DNA from: Glycomyces luteolus | GTDB taxonomy: Bacteria; Actinomycetota; Actinomycetes; Mycobacteriales; Micromonosporaceae | NCBI RefSeq assembly: GCF_027622875.1 | Contig: NZ_JAPZVP010000016.1 | Coordinates: 62,001-126,000 of the forward strand | DNA: 64,000 bases | Direction: 5' to 3' | Part shown: positions 38-12,339 of the stretch, piece by piece | Position numbering within the stretch: the stretch's first letter is position 1 | Layout: every line of letters begins with the position of its first letter | Program-made: the position numbers and the translations under genes | Notes under the pieces: model-generated | The model's database searches: none | Seen by the model: the letters and a program-made list of their open reading frames with translations, nothing else | What the model was told of the DNA's origin: nothing

Positions 38-715
38 TCACGAACACCGAGACCGACCGGGGCGATTCAGCTCGTAACCCAGTCTGAAGGGCGGGGCCGC
101 TTTCGCGGCCCCGCCTTTTGCCTTGCCGCCGAACGGCAACGGGCCCGGCCGCCCAGGGGGCCGGGGCCGGGGGGGGGGCGGGGGGGGGGAGCGGACCTGG
201 TAGGAGCTGGCCCGGTTGGCCCAGCCGCCGGCGGCGGTGTTGAGGTTGGCGAGGTTGTCGATCCAGGTGGAGGACGTCCCGGTGGCGTCGGCGCTGTCGA
301 AGAGCTTGACGTCGCACGAGCGATAGGTGTGCGCGGAGCTGGCCTTGTTGACGAAGCTCCCCATTCTGGTGATGGTGAACTCGACCGGTGAGTATCCGGC
401 CGAGCAGGTGTAGGAGCCCGGCGCGGTCAGTGTGTGGGTGCCGTTGGCGGTCCCGTAGTTGGTGTCGTTGTACAGCCGCACCAGGACGCTGTCAGCCTGG
501 AGGCCGTCCGAGTTCGCGGCGAGGGCCGCCTCCGGGGAGTCGGCGCAGGTGAGCTCCTCGCTGACGATGTCGTAGGCGCAGTGGTCGCCGGTGGTATCGG
601 CCTGCGCGGTCGAGGGGGCGAGCGCCAGCGAGCCCGCCGCGAACGCCACCGAGAGTGCCACGGCGGCCTTCACGCGCCTGCCGAGCGGGGTGTCTTGCCA
701 TGTGCGATCAGCCAT
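38..715 (-). CDS. Secreted crystallin-like / peptidase inhibitor I36-type protein, with aberrant C-terminus
   Basis: The protein starts at the ATG at 715 (MADRTWQ...), giving a twin-Arg/hydrophobic signal peptide ending near AQA-D. The mature part has the beta/gamma-crystallin pattern (RLYNDTNYG; WIDNLANLN; GWANRASSYQV) and four conserved Cys. It is a tandem paralogue of the neighbour at 822-1358, which stops right after FQVS. Here the frame passes the matching point (codon ending about 191), enters two ten-base G runs (169-189) read as a polyproline stretch, and continues antisense through the upstream gene's terminator. The last ~50 residues are therefore probably not native: either a slipped homopolymer or a sequencing error removed the stop. 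Function in the family is usually extracellular protease inhibition or Ca-binding; the exact role is unknown. Confidence 0.75.
   Translation of the reverse strand: MADRTWQDTPLGRRVKAAVALSVAFAAGSLALAPSTAQADTTGDHCAYDIVSEELTCADSPEAALAANSDGLQADSVLVRLYNDTNYGTANGTHTLTAPGSYTCSAGYSPVEFTITRMGSFVNKASSAHTYRSCDVKLFDSADATGTSSTWIDNLANLNTAAGGWANRASSYQVRSPPPPPPRPRPPGRPGPLPFGGKAKGGAAKAAPPFRLGYELNRPGRSRCS
90..119 (+). terminator. Rho-independent terminator of the gene ending at 33
   Basis: A perfect 11-bp GC-rich stem (90-100 with 105-115), a TTTC loop and a TTTT tract at 116-119 form a classical intrinsic terminator. The convergent crystallin-like reading frame runs antisense through it, which is one reason to doubt that frame's C-terminus. 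Confidence 0.9.
169..189. repeat. Double poly-G tract (G10-C-G10)
   Basis: Ten G, one C and ten G lie exactly where the homologous gene has its stop codon. Such tracts are prone to slippage in vivo and to base-calling error in sequencing. Confidence 0.85.
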
Positions 716-760
716 GCCCGGAACCGTAGGCGCCGAAGCGGATACAAGAGCCGGTTCAGG

Positions 761-776
761 TCGCATACGCGGCGTA
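761..776. promoter_or_regulatory. Conserved operator/promoter element of the first crystallin-like gene
   Basis: A 16-base block (761-776) recurs identically at 1403-1418. It contains the 11-base inverted repeat TACGC-G-GCGTA at 766-776, centred 56 bases before the start at 715. The second copy is 55 bases before its own gene. Equal placement in both paralogues suggests a common regulator; the adjacent SARP is the obvious candidate (inference). Confidence 0.6.
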
Positions 777-781
777 CACGC

Positions 782-809
782 GGGTCCGGCCGCGAGCGCG
801 GCCGGACCC
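782..809 (-). terminator. Hairpin terminator of the second crystallin-like gene
   Basis: A perfect 13-bp stem (782-794 with 797-809) sits 12 bases past the stop of the gene at 822-1358. It has no T tract. It separates that gene from the promoter of the next paralogue. Confidence 0.65.
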
Positions 810-821
810 TGTCGGAATCGG

Positions 822-1358
822 TCAGCTGACTTGGAAGGAGCCGGCTCGGTTGGCCCAGCCGCCGGCGGCGGTGTTGAGGTTGGCGAGGTTGTCGATCCAG
901 GTGGAGGACGTCCCGGTGGCGTCGGAGTTGTCGAAGAGCTTGACGTCGCACGAGTGGTAGGTGTGCGCGGAGCTGGCGCGGTTGCTCCAGCCGGCGGATC
1001 CGAGGTTGACGACGGTGAACTCGATCGGCGAGTACGCGGCCGAGCAGGTGTAGGAGCCGTCGACGGTCAGTGTGAAGGTGCCGTTGGAGGTGCCGTAGTT
1101 GGCGTCGTCGTAGAGGCGCACCAGGGTGGTGGTCGCCTGGATGCCGGCGTCGGCCGCGAGGGCCGCTTCCTGGGTGTCGGAGCAGGAGAGTTCGTCGCGG
1201 GTGAGGTTGTAGACGCAGTGGTCGCCGGTGGTCTCGGCCTGCGCGGTCGCGGGGGCGAGGAGCAGTGTGCCGGCGGCGGCCGCGAAGGAGAGCGCCACGG
1301 CGGCCATGGCGCGCTTGCGGTCAGTGTTGGCGAGGTGTTTCATGTTGCGTTTGGCCAT
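822..1358 (-). CDS. Secreted crystallin-like / peptidase inhibitor I36-type protein
   Basis: A 178-residue protein starting MAKRNMKH with an Ala-rich signal peptide ending near TAQA-E. The mature domain repeats the crystallin Greek-key pattern of its neighbour (RLYDDANYGTSNG; DVKLFDNSDATG; WIDNLANLNTAAGGW) and ends cleanly with FQVS. Both genes have the same upstream block (TACGGTTC just before ATG and an 11-bp inverted repeat ~55 bases upstream), so the duplication included the promoter. It is divergent from the SARP gene at 1484. Likely an exported inhibitor or envelope-binding protein; the substrate is not predictable. Confidence 0.88.
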   Translation of the reverse strand: MAKRNMKHLANTDRKRAMAAVALSFAAAAGTLLLAPATAQAETTGDHCVYNLTRDELSCSDTQEAALAADAGIQATTTLVRLYDDANYGTSNGTFTLTVDGSYTCSAAYSPIEFTVVNLGSAGWSNRASSAHTYHSCDVKLFDNSDATGTSSTWIDNLANLNTAAGGWANRAGSFQVS

Positions 1359-4162: not shown

Positions 4163-4810
4163 GTGTTCTCGAACGTCTCGGCGCGGTGGCGCCGTCGCCT
4201 GCGTGTCGCCGTCGTCGTGTGGGCGGTGCTGCTGGTCGCGGTCGCTTTCGCCGCGTCGCGCGCGACGGTGCGCGAGCAGGTGGACGCGGCCGGCGCCCGG
4301 GAGCTGCTGGACGCGGCGATCGGCGAGGCGGCGGGAGTGTTCACGGGCGCGGCGGTGCTCGCGGTGGGGCCGCTGAGCTGGGAGGCGTGCGACGTGACGC
4401 CGGTGCGGGCGGGCCTGTCGCTCGAACGGACGCTCCAGGTCTCGGGTGCGACCGTGGCGAACGTCGAGGCGCTGGCAGAGCGGTTCGCGCTGCGGGTCTT
4501 GACGAACGAGCCGGACGGGGCCTCGTGGTCGGGGACGACCGGGGATTTCATCGGCGTGCGGGTCACCGCCCCGGTCGGCGAGCCGCCGGGCGGGCGCTGG
4601 TCGGAGCCGGTCGAGGTGCAGGCGGTCAGCGGCTGCAGGCCGTTGGAAGGGCCGATCGGGTCGTTCACGCCCGACCCTCCGGCCGGGGCCACGGCCGACT
4701 GGGCGTACGGCTCGGTCGACTGCCCGGGCGGCGAGACCCTGTCGAGCTGGACCGAACCGGTCGAAGCCCAGCCGCTGCGCGTCCACGAGACCACAGGCGG
4801 CTGCGCCTGA
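4163..4810 (+). CDS. Membrane-anchored exported protein of unknown function
   Basis: A 215-residue protein starting with GTG. It has an Arg-rich N-terminus (SARWRRRLR) and one hydrophobic segment (~14-30, VAVVVWAVLLVAVAFAA). The rest is an extracytoplasmic part with four Cys (EACDV, SGCRP, VDCPG, GGCA) that could form disulfides. No family was recognised. It lies between the divergent ECF41 operon and the TIR gene and ends 43 bases before the latter. Confidence 0.65.
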   Translation: MFSNVSARWRRRLRVAVVVWAVLLVAVAFAASRATVREQVDAAGARELLDAAIGEAAGVFTGAAVLAVGPLSWEACDVTPVRAGLSLERTLQVSGATVANVEALAERFALRVLTNEPDGASWSGTTGDFIGVRVTAPVGEPPGGRWSEPVEVQAVSGCRPLEGPIGSFTPDPPAGATADWAYGSVDCPGGETLSSWTEPVEAQPLRVHETTGGCA

Positions 4811-4853: not shown

Positions 4854-6188
4854 GTGAACCACCCCCATCGATACGACTTCGCCATCACCTATGCGGACGA
4901 AGACCGCGATTTCGCCAAACCCCTGTACGACCGCCTCGATGCCGAGGGCCTCAAGGGCTTCATCGACGTCGACGCCGAGGCGGACCTCCTCGGCAAGCAC
5001 CGGCCGACCCATCTCGCCGAGTTGTTCGCGAACGACACCGAGTACGTCGTGCTCGCGCTCTCCGGGGCGTACTTCGATCAGGTCTGGCAGCAGGTCGAGC
5101 TGCGCGGGGCGATCGCGACCGCGATCAGGACCAAGCGCGACTACATCCTGCCGGTGCGCCTGGACGACGCCGAATGGCCGGTCCTGCTGCAGGACATCGG
5201 GTTCGTGGACGCGCGCGAGCGGAGCCCCGAAGCTGTCGCCCGCGTCATCGGCGCGAAGCTCCGCGGCGGCGCCGAGCCCCCGGTGCCGCTCACCGAGGCG
5301 CCGCTCGACCCGCCCGTCCTCGGGCTCCACCGCTTCCCGCGCCATGCCAAGCCCGAGTTCGAGGCCGCGGTCGTTCCGTTCAAAGTGGACGAGTCGCTGG
5401 TCGACGACCGCTTCCGCGAATGGGCGCGGGGCCGGTGGCGGGCCCGTGAGGACTTCCGCAGACTGGTGAGCGCGGGCGCCCGCCGGGCCGTGTTCGTGCC
5501 GTACTGGGTCGGCGAGGCCGACCTGTACGTCGAGTACAAGGGCTCGACGCAGATCCAGCCCTCGGCGGCGGGCACAAGCGCGGTGCAGACCCAGCCGCCC
5601 GAACGCGTCTCGGTCAACCGCGAGTTCCTGCACCGGCGCTATCAGTTCGCGCGGCCGGCGTTCATTCCGGACGTCGAGTTCGGTCAGGGCTTCGCGAAGC
5701 ACCTGGCGGCCGTCCGGCCCGGATGGAGCCTCGACGAGCGGATCGCGGCCACGCCCGAGCGGCTCAGCGGCTTCGATCTGATCGGCAGGTCCGTGTCGGC
5801 GCAGGAGGCGGCGAACGACTGGCATCCGTTCTCGGACGACCAGCTCGCGGCCGCGATCAGGGCGGACCTCGGCGGTGCGTATCAGACGATCGGCACGCCC
5901 CGCACGCGCGCCGGAGGCGTCGAGGCCGAGATCCGGTTCCTGCCGGTGTGGGTCGTGGACTGGGAGTTCGAGGGCGAGCGCGGCCGGGTCCTGATCAACG
6001 GCCAGACCGGTGTCGCGGCGGGCAGCGAGTACCGCAGCGCCTGGAAGACGCTGATGATCGCCGCGGGCTGCGTCGCGGCGGTGATGCTGCTGTTCGCCCT
6101 GTTGAACGCCGGGGTCGACGACGCCCAGAGCCCCGGTGAGGGCGCCGGGTCGACCGGAGACGTCACCGAGACCACCCAGGCGGACTGA
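4854..6188 (+). CDS. TIR-domain membrane protein fused to a PYW/LPVW-INGQTG domain
   Basis: A 444-residue protein. Residues 6-138 form a TIR domain: YDFAITYADED, the LSGAYFDQVWQQVEL motif and the candidate NADase glutamate E82. Residues ~160-398 resemble the domain that follows zinc ribbons in some large bacterial membrane proteins: FVPYW (214-218), ERLSGFDL (302-309), FLPVW (362-366) and INGQTG (381-386). A single membrane segment spans ~400-419, followed by a short acidic tail. TIR domains in bacteria act as NADases or produce cyclic-nucleotide signals, often in anti-phage defence; the partner domain has no known function. Which side of the membrane the TIR domain faces is not known; with no N-terminal signal and a C-terminal anchor, a cytoplasmic location is most likely. 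Neighbours are small membrane proteins. Confidence 0.85.
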   Translation: MNHPHRYDFAITYADEDRDFAKPLYDRLDAEGLKGFIDVDAEADLLGKHRPTHLAELFANDTEYVVLALSGAYFDQVWQQVELRGAIATAIRTKRDYILPVRLDDAEWPVLLQDIGFVDARERSPEAVARVIGAKLRGGAEPPVPLTEAPLDPPVLGLHRFPRHAKPEFEAAVVPFKVDESLVDDRFREWARGRWRAREDFRRLVSAGARRAVFVPYWVGEADLYVEYKGSTQIQPSAAGTSAVQTQPPERVSVNREFLHRRYQFARPAFIPDVEFGQGFAKHLAAVRPGWSLDERIAATPERLSGFDLIGRSVSAQEAANDWHPFSDDQLAAAIRADLGGAYQTIGTPRTRAGGVEAEIRFLPVWVVDWEFEGERGRVLINGQTGVAAGSEYRSAWKTLMIAAGCVAAVMLLFALLNAGVDDAQSPGEGAGSTGDVTETTQAD

Positions 6189-6257: not shown

Positions 6258-6560
6258 ATGACGTACCAACCGCCGCAATGGCAACCCGGTCAGCAGCAGT
6301 ACCAGCAGCAGCCCCCGTACCCGCATCAGCCGCCGCCTCCCTATGCGCCGCAGGCGTACCAGCAGGCCCCGCAGCCTCCGGCCGCGCCGTACGGGCAGCA
6401 CCCGCACCAGCCGCAGGTCTACACCGGACCGCTGCCCGGCGGCGACCCGAAGGCGCAGGCGTGGAAGAACTACGGCATGCAGTGGCTGCTGGGCCTGGGC
6501 TTCCTCGCGGTCATCGGCATCTTCGCGGTGATCTACAACCTCGCCACCGGCGAATGGTGA
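6258..6560 (+). CDS. Small Pro/Gln-rich single-pass membrane protein
   Basis: A 100-residue protein beginning MTYQPPQWQPGQQQ. Residues 1-63 are a low-complexity Pro/Gln/Tyr cytoplasmic tail. A single hydrophobic helix follows at ~78-93 (LLGLGFLAVIGIFAVI). GAAGGAG at 6242-6248 sets the start. Pro/Gln tails before one membrane helix are common in actinobacterial envelope proteins of unknown function. It is co-oriented with, and 69 bases after, the TIR gene. Confidence 0.8.
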   Translation: MTYQPPQWQPGQQQYQQQPPYPHQPPPPYAPQAYQQAPQPPAAPYGQHPHQPQVYTGPLPGGDPKAQAWKNYGMQWLLGLGFLAVIGIFAVIYNLATGEW

Positions 6561-6567
6561 CCCGCGC

Positions 6568-7710
6568 TCACTTGTCGATGTCGCCGACCACGAAGAACAT
6601 CGAGCCGAGGATCGCGATCATGTCCGGGATGAGGCAACCGGTCATGAGCGTCGCCAGCGCCTGCACGTTCGCGTAGGACGCGGTGCGCAGCTTCAGCCGC
6701 CACGGCGTCTTCTCGCCCCTGCTCACCAGGTAGTAGCCGTTGGCGCCCAGCGGGTTCTCGGTCCACACGTACGTCTCGCCCACGGGCGGTTTGAAGATCT
6801 TCGGCTGCTTGACGTTCACCGGCCCGCCGATGAGCGACGCCTGCTCCAGGCACTGCCGTGCGAGGTCGATCGATACCTGCACCTGGTCGAGCAGGCAGAT
6901 GAATCGCGCGTAGCAGTCGCCTTCGGTGCGCAGCACCACCGGCACGTCCAGCTGGTCGTAGGCGAGGTAGGGCTCGTCGCGGCGCAGGTCGAAGTCGAGG
7001 CCGCTGGCGCGGGCGACCGGGCCGGTCACGCCGTACGCGGCGGCCGTCGCGGCGTCGAGCACGCCGACGCCCTTGGTGCGGGCCGCGAAGATCTCGTTGT
7101 GCCGCAGGAGCTTGTCGAGGCGGGCCATGCCGTGCTCGACCTCGTCGAGGGCCCGGTGCGAGCGCCCCTCCCAGCCGGAGGGGACGTCCGCTTTGAGGCC
7201 GCCGACGCAGTTGTACATGTAGTGGATGCGTCCGCCGCTGGCCTCCTCCATGACCTGCTGCAGCCGTTCGCGTTCGGTGAAGGCGTAGAACATCGGGGTG
7301 ATCGCCCCGATCTCCAGCGGGTACGAGCCGAGGAACATGAGGTGGTTGAGGACCCGGTTCATCTCGGCGAGCGCCATGCGCAGCCAGACCGCCCGCTCGG
7401 GCACCTCGACTCCGGCGAGGCGCTCGGCGGCGAGGGCGACGCCGAGTTCTGAGGAGAACGCGGAGAGCCAGTCGTGCCGGTTGGCGAGGAGCATGATCTG
7501 GCGGAAGTCGCGCACCTCGTAGAGCTTTTCGGCGCCGCGGTGCATGTAGCCGATGATCGGCTCGCATTCGGTGACGCGCTCGCCGTCGACGCGCAGCCGC
7601 AGGCGCAGCACCCCGTGCGTGGACGGGTGCTGCGGCCCGATGTTGAGCACCATGTCGGTGGCCTCGGTGCCGGCTCCGACGCCGACGATCACTTGCTCCC
7701 GCTCGCTCAC
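6568..7710 (-). CDS. nuoD: NADH-quinone oxidoreductase subunit D-like protein (orphan NuoD2 type)
   Basis: A full-length 49-kDa-subunit homologue of about 380 residues with the NuoD signatures [37 protein letters not shown] and [20 protein letters not shown] at the C-terminus. In complex I, NuoD forms part of the quinone site with NuoB. No other nuo gene is nearby, so this is the stand-alone paralogue known from several actinobacteria rather than part of the 14-gene operon. The GTG at 7710 ([12 protein letters not shown]) fits family starts; the longer frame from 7815 adds an unlikely Pro/Arg-rich leader. Whether it assembles into complex I is unclear. Confidence 0.93.
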
Positions 7711-8311: not shown

Positions 8312-8848
8312 GTGACCGACAGCGACGCGTATCTGAAGGCCTGGGAGCCCGACAACGTCATCCCGTTCCCGCGGGAGGCGTGGATCGGCGAGTTCAAGGC
8401 GCCCAAGGCGACCTATCCCGTGGTCGATTTCCTGCCGATCGACATGTCCGTGGTGTACACCGCGTATCTCGAGGACGCGAGGTTCGACCTGTACAGCCGG
8501 ATCAACCTCGACATGGGGCGGGACGGGACGCTTGAGCTGGCGGTGGTCGGCGCGGTCCCGGACGACAAGGACGACATGCTGTTCTGCCTCGACACCGGCA
8601 GCGGCCAGGTCCTGCTCCTGGGCGTGAGCGACGGGACGATGGAGCTGGTGAACTCGACGTTCAAGGCGCTCACCGAGTTCCTGTACCACTTCGCGCTGTT
8701 CATCGACGCCGACACGGGCGGCGCGGGCCGCGCCCGGCGGGCCAAGGTCTTGCGCGGCACGTTGAACGGGATCGACCCGCAGGCCCTCGCCGACCGGGAG
8801 TCGTGGTGGTCGATCGCCCTCATGCAGCTGGAGGGCGCGAAGGCCTGA
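8312..8848 (+). CDS. SUKH-4 family immunity protein
   Basis: A 178-residue soluble protein clearly paralogous to the gene at 9390-9911: shared PREAW/PREDW, VVYTAYL, VVGAV.DDK, EFLYHFA.F..AD and a C-terminal WW. SUKH proteins bind and neutralise nuclease toxins of polymorphic or contact-dependent systems. It lies on the opposite strand, convergent with the toxin-immunity operon, so it may be a duplicated immunity gene for the same or a lost toxin. Confidence 0.8.
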   Translation: MTDSDAYLKAWEPDNVIPFPREAWIGEFKAPKATYPVVDFLPIDMSVVYTAYLEDARFDLYSRINLDMGRDGTLELAVVGAVPDDKDDMLFCLDTGSGQVLLLGVSDGTMELVNSTFKALTEFLYHFALFIDADTGGAGRARRAKVLRGTLNGIDPQALADRESWWSIALMQLEGAKA

Positions 8849-8880
8849 CCGGCTGGGCTTCCAGGGCCCGTGAACGCGGC

Positions 8881-9243
8881 CTAGGAAGGCGCCGCTTGCG
8901 CGAGGAAGCCGGCGAAGATGTACGAGACCTGGTCCACGAACTCGATCCCGGTCGGCGTGTAGGTGTCGGCGACTTCATCGCCGCAGGCCGCCGCCATGCC
9001 GTTCGCGGAACCCGGGAGCTCGGTGGTGGAGATGTTGAGTGCCACCAGGCCGAATACCGCGCAGATCAGTCCGATGCGGGCCCACAGGGGCAGCCGGTGC
9101 CGCTTGACCGGCAGCGCCAGGATGAAGGCCGTGGCGGTCAGCAGCGTTCCCGATTGCACTTTGCCGCCGCCGAGCAGTACGACGCCGCACAGTCCGGTGA
9201 TGACGATGCCCGTCCACATTGCCGTCTTCTTGAAGGTGTCCAT
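8881..9243 (-). CDS. Small membrane protein at the end of the toxin-immunity operon
   Basis: A 120-residue protein with three predicted membrane helices (TAMWTGIVITGLCGVVLLGG; TLLTATAFILALPV; IGLICAVFGLVALNI) and a C-terminal region with one Cys. The start at 9243 follows GAAAGGAC. It is the last gene of the minus-strand set after the two immunity genes. No family was recognised. Confidence 0.65.
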   Translation of the reverse strand: MDTFKKTAMWTGIVITGLCGVVLLGGGKVQSGTLLTATAFILALPVKRHRLPLWARIGLICAVFGLVALNISTTELPGSANGMAAACGDEVADTYTPTGIEFVDQVSYIFAGFLAQAAPS

Positions 9244-9389
9244 CGGGGTGCCGTCCTTTCGCCGCGGCCCGGGGATTCGGCCGTCATGGCCATTCCACTG
9301 CACGGCGTGTTGCGCGGGCGTCACCTAGGCGGCAGCGCCGCGGCGGCATCGGCGCGCGGCGCCGATCCCGGCCGGCGGACGGTCCCGGG

Positions 9390-9911
9390 CTACGCCCCGA
9401 GCTGGTCGAAGACCAGGGGCCACCAGGCTCCCGCCGCGAAGGCGTTGGGGTCCAAGCGGATCAGGATCTCGCGGAGGGAGGCGGCGCGCTCGGCGCGGCC
9501 CGGTTTGCCGTCGTCGGCGTTGACGAACTGCGCGAAGTGGTACAGGAACTCGATGAAGCAGCGGTAGTTGGAGTTGACGGCCTGGACGTCGCGCGGGTTG
9601 GCCTGGTCGAGCTGGAGGATGTCGCCGCTGGCGGGGTCGAGCACGTACAGGAGGTTCTTGTCGTCCTCGACCGCGCCGACCACGATGAGGCGCAGGTCGA
9701 CCTTGCCGTCCTCGGTGCCGAGGCTGATGGTGTCGTAGAGGCCGGGGCTGCCGGGGAGGTAGGCGGTGTAGACGACCTCGACGTCGAGGGGCACTTCGTC
9801 GCCTTCGGGGAGGGCCGCGGCCGGGAAGCCGTCCGCGAGCCAATCCTCGCGCGGGTAGGGGATCAGTTCGTCTTCAGTCCACAGTGCTTGGTACTTCGCT
9901 GCCGCGGGCAT
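9390..9911 (-). CDS. SUKH-4 family immunity protein
   Basis: A 173-residue protein, paralogue of 8312-8848, with PYPREDW, VPLDVEVVYTAYL, RLIVVGAVEDDKN and EFLYHFAQFVNADDGKPGRAERA. It lies 45 bases downstream of another SUKH-like gene and of the HNH toxin gene, the normal place for an immunity protein. Expected role: cytoplasmic binding and inhibition of the nuclease toxin. Confidence 0.82.
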   Translation of the reverse strand: MPAAAKYQALWTEDELIPYPREDWLADGFPAAALPEGDEVPLDVEVVYTAYLPGSPGLYDTISLGTEDGKVDLRLIVVGAVEDDKNLLYVLDPASGDILQLDQANPRDVQAVNSNYRCFIEFLYHFAQFVNADDGKPGRAERAASLREILIRLDPNAFAAGAWWPLVFDQLGA

Positions 9912-9956
9912 GCGGGCCTCCTCAGGTCAGGGATGCTTTCGGGTTGCGGGAAGGGG

Positions 9957-10484
9957 TCAGGCGAAGCCGAGTTCCTCGATGAGGAGGCGCCATTCGTCCT
10001 CCTCCTCGTCCTCGGGCGTCGGGTAGCCGCCGACGAGCTCGATGAGCTCCCGGTAGCGCGGGCCGAAGAGGAACGCGTCGGCGAAGGCGACCGGGCTGGG
10101 CGCGAGCAGGTTCGTCTCCAGCGATTCGCCCATTTTGACGGCGTCGATGTACAAGTCGCCGTTGAACAGGTGCACCGCCCCCGAGTCGAGGTCGGTGCAC
10201 AGCGCGTCGCTGTAGCCGATCGTGCCGAACTGCAGCAGGTTCGGGACGGGGTCGTGCAGGTCCCCCGCCCCCTTCTTGGCGAGTTCGGCAAGGGCGCCTT
10301 CGGCGTCGAGGAGGTCGATGAACCCCATGCGGGTGCTCAGGCCGTCGAAGATCCGGTAGAGCTCCGCGAGCGCGGGCGGCAGGCCCGCGGGCTCGGCCGG
10401 TTCGCCGAGCTCGTAGTCCCATCCGTATCGATCGAGCTCTCCCATGCGGGGTCGGACGAGCGCCACTTTCGCCGCGAGTTCCAT
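9957..10484 (-). CDS. SUKH superfamily (SMI1/GAD-like) immunity protein
   Basis: A 175-residue acidic protein starting 14 bases after the toxin stop, so probably translationally linked to it. It carries SMI1/SUKH-like features: LPPALAELYRIFDGLST, then GYSDALCTDLDSGAVHLFNGDLYI, then YRELIELVGGYPT. An acidic run (EDEEEDEW) sits near the end. By position this is the cognate immunity protein of the HNH toxin. Confidence 0.75.
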   Translation of the reverse strand: MELAAKVALVRPRMGELDRYGWDYELGEPAEPAGLPPALAELYRIFDGLSTRMGFIDLLDAEGALAELAKKGAGDLHDPVPNLLQFGTIGYSDALCTDLDSGAVHLFNGDLYIDAVKMGESLETNLLAPSPVAFADAFLFGPRYRELIELVGGYPTPEDEEEDEWRLLIEELGFA

Positions 10485-10498
10485 CCTGGACGGTCCTT

Positions 10499-11041
10499 TC
10501 AGTATCCGAGGACTCTGATGATGACGGGTGTGCCGTCGGGCACGCCTCTGAGCTGCCCGGCGATCTGGGAGCCGATGGTGCGGTTCGTGTAGGCGTCCAT
10601 CCAGCGGAGGTTATCAGCGTGGTCGCGCCCGCCGAGCTGCAATTCGTGCACGTGGTCGGGGTCGAGCCCGTCCCCGGCCCGGTTCGCGGACGTGCGGCCG
10701 CTGAACTTCTGCGCGATGCGCCGCTGCTCGGCCCGGTTGCCGCGGTGGCGTCCGGCGAGTTTGCGGATGGTCGCGCCGCGGTAGTTGCGGGTGATCTGCG
10801 GGTCGCGCTTGACGGGCGTCTTGCGGAGCTTGCCCTCGCGGCTGAGGCGCAGGAGCGAGTCGGCCTTCGTCCGGAAGTCCTTCTTGCTCATCTTGGAGTC
10901 GAACCTGATGGTGACGACCTTGGGTTTGACGCCGCGGCCCTTGCCCGCCCGGAAGAAGCGCGGGTTGTCGATGATCGCCGAGATGATCTTGGCGCCCTTG
11001 GAGACGGTCGATCGCGCGGCCCGCGTGCGTGCCCTAGCCAT
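10499..11041 (-). CDS. HNH/endonuclease VII-fold toxin domain protein
   Basis: A 180-residue basic protein whose C-terminal third has the nuclease motif DPDHVHELQLGGRDHADNL followed by DAYTNRTIGSQIAGQL, as in HNH-type toxins of polymorphic systems. It begins inside the last codons of the CpnT-like gene: the 8-base overlap ATGGCTAG holds its start and the previous stop. In most systems trafficking and nuclease domains are one polypeptide. Here they are two overlapping cistrons, either translationally coupled or split by a frameshift. Two SUKH immunity genes follow. Confidence 0.8.
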   Translation of the reverse strand: MARARTRAARSTVSKGAKIISAIIDNPRFFRAGKGRGVKPKVVTIRFDSKMSKKDFRTKADSLLRLSREGKLRKTPVKRDPQITRNYRGATIRKLAGRHRGNRAEQRRIAQKFSGRTSANRAGDGLDPDHVHELQLGGRDHADNLRWMDAYTNRTIGSQIAGQLRGVPDGTPVIIRVLGY

Positions 11042-11528
11042 TGAGCACCGCCTCGATCGCCATGTTGAGGAGCTGCTCGATGAGCATCGAGGTGATCATC
11101 TTGAAGATGGGGATCTCCAGGAGCGAGGCGCCGAAGGTGGCGACGGCGGTGGCGATGGCCTGCGCGATCTGGATGGCGAGCGTGACGAGCTGGACGATCA
11201 TCTGCAGTTTCAGGGCGAGCACGACGCCCGCGGCGATCATGAGGCCGATGCTGATGATGTTCGAGGGCTCGCCGATGTCGGCGATGTTCCGCACCGCGGA
11301 CTCGCCGTCCTCCCATTCGGAGCGGAAGGCGTCGATGTCCTTGCTGATGTTGCCGTCGATGACGCCGCGGGCGGCGTCCTCGAGCTGGTCGATCGCTCCG
11401 GTGAGCTGATCGGAGAGCTTCGTCCAGTTGTCGCCGAGGTCGAAGAGCTTCGTCTCGTCCGATTCGGGCCAGTCGTAGCCGAGCATGGAGAGCAGGCTCG
11501 TGAGTTCTGAGGGCAGTTGCATACCCAC
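11034..11528 (-). CDS. CpnT-like N-terminal (type VII-type trafficking) domain protein
   Basis: A 164-residue protein with the CpnT/WXG100-like N-terminal pattern: LPSELTSLLSMLGYDWPESDE, then a helical region with WTKLSDQL. A long hydrophobic hairpin follows at ~90-150 (IISIGLMIAAGVVLALKLQMIVQL; IATAVATFGASLL). The GTG at 11528 is favoured by GAAGGAG six bases upstream; an ATG two codons on is the alternative. It normally forms the export end of polymorphic toxins and here precedes, in an overlapping frame, the HNH toxin. Confidence 0.8.
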   Translation of the reverse strand: MGMQLPSELTSLLSMLGYDWPESDETKLFDLGDNWTKLSDQLTGAIDQLEDAARGVIDGNISKDIDAFRSEWEDGESAVRNIADIGEPSNIISIGLMIAAGVVLALKLQMIVQLVTLAIQIAQAIATAVATFGASLLEIPIFKMITSMLIEQLLNMAIEAVLNG

Positions 11529-11609
11529 TGGGGTCTCCTTCGTAAGGGGAGGAACGCAAAGGGTGATGAAGGAAGGCGCGGTGGCCGGTGCCGGCGGCCG
11601 GGGCGGGGT

Positions 11610-11933
11610 CTACAGGCCGAGTTCGGCGAGGAGCTCGCGGAAGATGCGGGCGGCCTCGCTGTCGGCCGATTCGTGGTTGTCGGCCATCTCGCGGAGGTTG
11701 ACCGCGTAGTCGAGGAGGTCTTCGACGTTCGACTCGATGCACTCCATGAGGGCCTCCATGCACACCTGGTGCGCGAGGTCGAGGAGCGAGCCGATCATGT
11801 CGCCGCCGAAGGAGTCGGCGAGTCCCTCCACGGCGGATTTGAACTCTTCGAACAGGCCTTGGACCACCTCGGTCGCGGCGTCGAGCGCGTCGGCGCCCTC
11901 CCGGATCGAGTCGAGGTCGAGCTCCACCACCAT
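11610..11933 (-). CDS. WXG100-like helical secretion-associated protein
   Basis: A 107-residue acidic, fully helical protein (LDSIREGADALDAATEVVQGLFEEFKSAVEGLADSFGG). It lacks a strict WXG but has the size, charge and position typical of ESX-type helper or substrate proteins upstream of CpnT-like toxins. It starts one base after the stop of the YbaB-like gene, indicating coupling. Confidence 0.65.
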   Translation of the reverse strand: MVVELDLDSIREGADALDAATEVVQGLFEEFKSAVEGLADSFGGDMIGSLLDLAHQVCMEALMECIESNVEDLLDYAVNLREMADNHESADSEAARIFRELLAELGL

Positions 11934-11934
11934 G

Positions 11935-12339
11935 TCAGGACCCTCCCTGGAGTTTCTTCATGACCGCGCTGATCTGGGTGCTCATGGCGCGCATCTGGGC
12001 GAGGCCCTGGTCCTGGAGCTTGGCGACGGCCTCGCCGATGGCCTCCAGGTCGGGTGCGGCCGTGTCGGCCGAGAGGGACTCGGCGCGGGCGTCGAGGGCC
12101 GCGTTGACGAGGTTGCAGAGCTCCTCCTCGAGGTATTCGGTGCCCTCCTTGAGCACTCGCACCTCCGTGAACTCGAAGCGCTCGACGCGGCCGTTCGCGC
12201 CGAGGGTGATCTTGATGCGCCCGTCGGCCGCCTCGGCGGTGACGGGAGGGACCTGGTGGTTCTGCTGGGTTTGCCTGACGACATCCAGTTGCGAGCGGGC
12301 TTCCGCCAGTTGCTGGGCGATGGCGTCCTCACCGAACAT
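11935..12339 (-). CDS. YbaB/EbfC-like protein of the toxin operon
   Basis: A 134-residue protein with the YbaB-type layout: an N-terminal coiled coil (IAQQLAEARSQLDVVRQTQQ), a beta core (GRIKITLGANGRVERFEF) and C-terminal helices. YbaB-like proteins often open WXG100/polymorphic-toxin operons in actinobacteria, in addition to the housekeeping copy near recR. First gene of the six-to-seven-gene operon running to 8881. Confidence 0.75.
   Translation of the reverse strand: MFGEDAIAQQLAEARSQLDVVRQTQQNHQVPPVTAEAADGRIKITLGANGRVERFEFTEVRVLKEGTEYLEEELCNLVNAALDARAESLSADTAAPDLEAIGEAVAKLQDQGLAQMRAMSTQISAVMKKLQGGS

Follow-up and report, generated by a model that had tools for sequence, protein, structure and literature searches.

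A TIR domain joined to a YdjG-type membrane module in Glycomyces luteolus and its possible role at the cell envelope

Introduction

A stretch of 64,000 nucleotides from Glycomyces luteolus (contig NZ_JAPZVP010000016.1, positions 62,001 to 126,000; hereafter, the window) contains a gene whose product combines a TIR domain with a second domain and a C-terminal membrane helix. This raises the questions of what the second domain is, how it came to be joined to a TIR domain and what the resulting protein might do. SpbK, as well as ThsB of the Thoeris system, are likewise TIR proteins and respond to infection in phage defence, each of them having partner parts different from that of the window protein.

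Gene and Protein Architecture

The open reading frame starts with GTG, is uninterrupted and encodes a protein of 444 amino acids with the following features:

4854 to 6188, plus strand: protein of 444 aa with TIR domain, YdjG-type domain and membrane helix
4869 to 5267, plus strand: TIR domain, residues 6-138 (PF13676 and match of the predicted model to AbTir, 7uxu)
5085 to 5099, plus strand: W78-x3-E82 motif, E82 being aligned with the same-motif glutamate of AbTir and BtTir
5268 to 5363, plus strand: linker, residues 139-170 (pLDDT <50 over residues 141-168)
5364 to 6038, plus strand: YdjG-type domain, residues 171-395, a divergent homologue of the domain found in zinc-ribbon membrane proteins
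6039 to 6125, plus strand: membrane helix, residues 396-424 (hydropathy and helix of the predicted model)
6126 to 6185, plus strand: short, acidic C-terminal tail as read from the sequence, probably extracellular

An earlier note on this DNA had described a TIR domain at residues 6-138 with a W-x3-E motif and E82, which is borne out by the match to PF13676 and by the sequence WQQVE at residues 78-82, and the further motifs it listed are all present, namely FVPYW (214-218), ERLSGF (302-307), FLPVW (362-366) and INGQTG (381-386). The single C-terminal membrane helix it had placed at residues 400-419 exists as well but has a predicted extent of 396-424, with residues 395-424 being hydrophobic in 19-residue hydropathy windows. 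Likewise, the proposed second domain at residues 150-398 is indeed homologous to a domain following zinc ribbons, although it begins near residue 171 rather than 150. The GC content at third codon positions is coding-like and alike across the parts (0.91 in the TIR part, 0.93 in residues 150-398), and a chance or chimeric reading frame was ruled out by the codon phase, the homology of both parts and the remnants found in relatives. The full-length predicted model reached a mean pLDDT of 78.9 and a pTM of 0.59; it was built from alignment A4, in which, as in A5, part of the N-terminus of the second domain is misplaced.

The TIR Domain

TIR_2 (PF13676) is the sole Pfam family matched in the protein, at residues 9-130 with an E-value of 7.1e-16 and 59.2 bits (cut-off 28), and the genome holds no other match to it. 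Matches from NCBIfam and PADLOC were confined to the TIR part, as was a match to ThsB (E 5.2e-6). An alignment of related TIR domains (11 rows) has E82 in every row and W78 in nearly all of them. Its profile placed AbTir, BtTir and BtpA/TcpB first among proteins of solved structure (E 3.7e-12 to 2.8e-9), and the motif glutamate is aligned in the alignments shown for AbTir (E 3.7e-12) and BtTir (E 2.1e-11). One of the deposited AbTir structures is named NAD(+) hydrolase AbTIR. The TIR part of the predicted model has a TIR fold, in agreement with the domain assignment of the earlier note, and the fold search aligned it with AbTir bound to 3AD (7uxu) at a TM-score of 0.81 by target length and an rmsd of 2.5, the identity with AbTir and BtTir amounting to 20-25%. 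The window protein is thus like AbTir and BtTir in its aligned WxxxE motif and similar fold; to our knowledge, these two proteins lack a YdjG-type module. Judged from its sequence, the TIR domain carries the catalytic-type glutamate (W78-E82) that is required of a TIR NADase, and we infer that the protein would cleave NAD+.

The YdjG-Type Module

In a phmmer search, residues 171-420 had homologues in numerous genomes of the family; the window genome itself holds two further copies of the module (C8:33117, E 2.8e-36; C18:71369, E 7.8e-15), and a copy in another species gave E 6.6e-25. The module of the window protein has no Pfam match, the domain being without a Pfam family of its own. Scanning genome contigs with an alignment of the module confirmed 139 relatives, the best 80 of which were kept and span Actinomycetota, Bacteroidota, Sumerlaeota and Lentisphaerota, which marks the domain as genuine and old. 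None of 30 pattern matches was confirmed when genome contigs were scanned with one module sequence as the query, and none of 16 when viral contigs were scanned with the module alignment. In a 50-row alignment of the module, the window row included, 15 columns are invariant; together with the phmmer homology, this argues against a chance origin of the module motifs, and the region belongs to the LPVW/NGQTG family, as the earlier note had supposed. Conservation among the other 49 rows reaches at least 90% at 48 columns; the window protein retains the conserved residue at 24 of these and has changed at the other 24, and its module may therefore no longer bind the partners of its relatives.

The module usually follows zinc ribbons, as had been claimed: CxxC motifs precede it in 79 of the 79 relatives with a readable upstream part among the best 80 of 139, one relative with a partly masked upstream part (L150) having been left out of this count. 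Within the 130 residues that precede the module, at least four CxxC motifs occur in 96 of 110 distinct module reading frames and two in 12; the remaining two, the window protein and L205, lack such motifs. Of the YdjG-type traits, the window protein shares the single C-terminal membrane helix after the module and has no CxxC motif before it, where a double zinc ribbon (four CxxC) would be expected. L205 (G1148:C22:7001-13000) is a module reading frame preceded by neither zinc ribbon nor TIR domain: in all frames, the roughly 140 residues ahead of it are free of CxxC, and there is no TIR match. Loss of the zinc ribbons is accordingly not unique to the window protein.

The zinc-ribbon proteins had been regarded as unrelated membrane proteins; instead, they form one family that matches the published description of YdjG. 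According to the extract of PMC11237479, YdjG of Bacillus subtilis combines a pair of zinc ribbons with a domain related to YpeB and a membrane segment, and its operon also encodes PspA, a band-7 protein and YdjH, which is a TPM protein. The extract of PMC8581546 adds that the recruitment of YdjI and PspA to the membrane depends on YdjG and YdjH, whose loss leads to disturbed cell shape under alkali shock. Comparable neighbours were found here: at 64 of the 80 loci, the gene directly preceding the module gene in the same orientation falls into a single cluster, which is present at 68 of the 80, and the two members of it that were scanned are Band_7_1/SPFH proteins with GYF_2. Three of the 12 loci without the cluster have no called upstream gene, and four are Glycomyces loci of the one-ribbon type. 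These four (L106, L151, L153, L163) have no upstream SPFH gene and show LytR-type-looking neighbours by eye, the SPFH partner seemingly having been lost. In Glycomyces, each of the ten Band_7_1 matches has a module match at a distance of 450-797 bases. LemA and TPM genes adjoin one Bacteroidales member (L143). The zinc-ribbon relatives therefore resemble YdjG in lying beside SPFH/band-7 genes and, in this Bacteroidales member, a TPM gene. The module is called YdjG-type because its architecture and gene neighbours match those published for YdjG of the pspA-ydjGHI envelope-stress operon; the name rests on these two features, with YdjG known here by its published description. The window protein is like YdjG and the zinc-ribbon module proteins in having a single C-terminal membrane helix after the module, and unlike YdjG in having a TIR domain in place of zinc ribbons and a genome without a Band_7_1 match.

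A weak match of PF03413 (PepSY/YPEB) to 16 of the 50 module rows at E <=1 (best 1.9e-4), the window row being unmatched, agrees with the YpeB-related domain that the extract on YdjG describes (PMC11237479). The predicted model of the module (alignment A6; mean pLDDT 81.3, pTM 0.74) shows long paired strands. Foldseek gave no match to the PDB at E <=0.001 (best 0.12), and the sequence profile of the module gave no relative among solved structures (best E 0.14). A second structural comparison yielded a single chain above Z 5 (4exr, Z 5.5, 62 residues, 2.4 A), which may reflect a common arrangement of elements.

Distribution and Origin of the Fusion

Within the 110 distinct module reading frames, TIR domain and module occur together in the window gene alone. 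The pairing had been called new, and the survey of co-occurrence gave no second fusion in overlapping genome sets: the fusion was found in the window genome only, i.e., in 1 of 61 genomes, 1 of 22 of the genus, 1 of 354 of the family, 1 of 396 of the phylum and 1 of 394 of the class, and in 0 of 345 genomes of Bacteroidota, with at most four candidates per genome scored in the sets of 354, 396, 345 and 394. A second fusion was judged by the query ranges of the matches listed. A match in G1148 reaching back to residue 132 proved to be the module without TIR domain of L205, and five TIR matches of the class set reaching residues 170-208 hold no module at E 1; further TIR matches whose ranges end at about 160-175 were judged by range only. 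Matches in plasmids (3 records) and phages (1 record) were confined to the TIR part (E 1e-5 and 1e-3). The titles and opening parts of abstracts among the matches listed from the literature on TIR or YdjG held no description of such a fusion. As an architecture resting on one genome, it appears new to us.

Since the relatives carry CxxC zinc ribbons at the position of the TIR domain, the latter appears to have replaced them, and the fusion probably originated by a swap of TIR for zinc ribbons in a YdjG-like protein. In the tree, the TIR-fused module groups with a paralog on the same contig with 99/99 support, both on long branches (2.43 changes per column for the TIR-fused module, 1.48 for the paralog). 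This closest relative (G000:C8:33000-34280, or L032:8000-9283) lies about 33 kb upstream and features one zinc ribbon (two CxxC) and the module, followed by a membrane helix and, on the C-terminal side, an Excalibur domain.

No full-length match to the fusion was found in the 20 other genus genomes that have the upstream neighbour described below. Nevertheless, G016 retains 46 residues from the C-terminal end of the fusion at 59% identity, and in G005 a shorter piece of the 3' end survives whose end points differ. These remnants are read here as traces of two independent deletions that hit an older gene, in preference to a late insertion in the window genome (G000) alone, so that the fusion gene was probably lost more than once in related Glycomyces. 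In another species (G004), a different gene occupies the same intergenic place (L074:2181-2915), and the spot may thus be prone to gain and loss.

Genomic Neighborhood and Candidate Partners

The fusion gene sits between two conserved genes and is directly flanked by two small ones:

4163 to 4810, plus strand: upstream neighbour, small protein with a membrane anchor, conserved across the genus, a possible operon mate ending 43 bases before the GTG
6258 to 6560, plus strand: downstream neighbour, Pro/Gln-rich protein of 100 aa with one hydrophobic stretch, with similar DNA in G007 and partial similarity in G018 and G005

The upstream neighbour is present in 21 of the 22 genus genomes, the window genome counted, and in the 20 others it adjoins the counterpart of the complex I 49 kDa-type gene found here at 6568-7710. 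PspA occurs in 22 of the 22 genus genomes, including that of the window, and Band_7_1 in 10 of the 22. The window genome, an assembly of 49 contigs rated 100% complete, gave no Band_7_1 match at E 0.001. The usual SPFH partner accordingly seems absent, and the TIR fusion probably has to operate without a Band_7_1 partner. GYF_2 domains bind proline-rich stretches; such domains are found on the SPFH partners elsewhere, and a Pro/Gln-rich protein is encoded downstream here, but in a genome without a Band_7_1 match. Candidate partners of the TIR fusion are PspA, the paralogous module proteins and the Pro/Gln-rich downstream protein.

Ten neighbouring proteins encoded between 2606 and 11041 gave no PADLOC match, and the neighbourhood they represent does not look like a defence island. 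As a ThsA-type effector was likewise not matched among these ten proteins, the window TIR gene is unlike that of Thoeris ThsB in this respect.

Proposed Mechanism and Alternative Explanations

The explanation preferred here, tentatively and with somewhat less assurance than "probable" would convey, is a membrane-tethered TIR NADase that would be gated by the YdjG-type module and would serve envelope- or phage-triggered cell death. The earlier note had proposed a membrane-linked immune or cell-death sensor, which is supported in part: the sequence bears out its building blocks, while NAD consumption by the TIR domain, sensing by the second domain and a role in phage defence are putative. Excalibur domains are extracellular, and the paralog on the same contig has one beyond its membrane helix, so that the TIR domain and the N-terminal side of the window protein are probably cytoplasmic; the module would lie on the same side and the tail outside. 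In healthy cells, the module might prevent the TIR domains from meeting or sequester them at the membrane. Upon a disturbance of the envelope, be it by phage entry or lysis proteins, loss of membrane potential or antibiotics, the module and the membrane-stress proteins bound to it would rearrange and cluster, whereupon the TIR domains could assemble and cleave NAD+, and the cell would be stopped or killed. The family assignment and structure of the TIR domain, E82, the homology of the module, its SPFH/TPM/LemA context, the presence of PspA and the patchy remnants count for this explanation. The missing Band_7_1 match, the change at 24 of 48 conserved positions, the lack of a PADLOC match, the occurrence in a single genome and the long branch count against it.

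In a Bacillus cereus system expressed in B. subtilis, a CBASS cyclase is covalently linked to PspA, as stated in the extract of PMC11153139. This makes the idea of a TIR domain acting on the membrane-stress network a reasonable, albeit not proven, one, and the window protein would likewise tie an immune enzyme to the Psp membrane-stress machinery; the cyclase is conjugated to PspA reversibly (PMC11153139), whereas in the window protein a gene fusion provides the link to a YdjG-type module. In a stricter form, an immune TIR NADase fused to a module of the YdjG/SPFH/PspA network would respond to membrane damage and not to a phage molecule, with damage triggering the loss of NAD+ and death; this form is conceivable but doubtful. 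If it were true, the protein would be the damage-sensing counterpart of the link between CBASS and PspA, and bacterial TIR immunity would be joined with the network of PspA, SPFH proteins and YdjG that deals with membrane stress. Furthermore, a single protein would be at hand for asking whether membrane damage is read as infection, and the uncharacterised YdjG domain would gain an enzymatic readout, the loss of NAD+, by which its sensing could be tested directly.

Rather unlikely is a role of the TIR domain as a scaffold or signal generator, by which an NAD-derived messenger or the recruitment of other proteins upon envelope stress would promote adaptation instead of defence. AbTir, one of the nearest solved relatives by profile, produces cyclic products. 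The normal place of the module among proteins of the envelope-stress type (SPFH, TPM) and the ten neighbouring proteins without PADLOC match agree with this idea as well. Conversely, E82 and W78 are kept as if catalysis matters, although this would also suit a messenger-making enzyme, and no messenger effector was recognised among the neighbours scanned.

A specialised phage sensor, in which the module or a membrane partner would recognise one phage membrane protein (a holin or a protein of injection or exclusion), is improbable. It has a precedent in the TIR defence protein SpbK, which interacts with the phage protein YonE according to the extract of PMC12847820, and the patchy presence in Glycomyces as well as the long branch and the many changed conserved positions would be in line with an arms race; the long branch, however, fits relaxed constraint equally well.

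Less likely still is a non-functional or decaying chance fusion that is confined to one species, is being lost and has no role: its detection in one genome only in the searches made, the remnants in two related species, the long branch and the 24 of 48 changed module positions would suit such a fate, whereas the uninterrupted reading frame with normal codon phase, the retained catalytic-type glutamate and the remnants elsewhere, which suggest a gene older than one species, speak against it.

Further Features of the Window

A probable interbacterial toxin cassette extends over positions 8312-12339. Pfam assigned two SUKH-4 immunity proteins (8312-8848 and 9390-9911) and a WXG100-like protein (11034-11522) in this region, and the product of 10499-11041, for which Pfam gave no match, shows an HNH-like motif near its C-terminus by eye. 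At the beginning of the window (38-1358), a tandem pair of similar, apparently secreted proteins is encoded, with its members recognised by eye at positions 38-673 and 822-1358.
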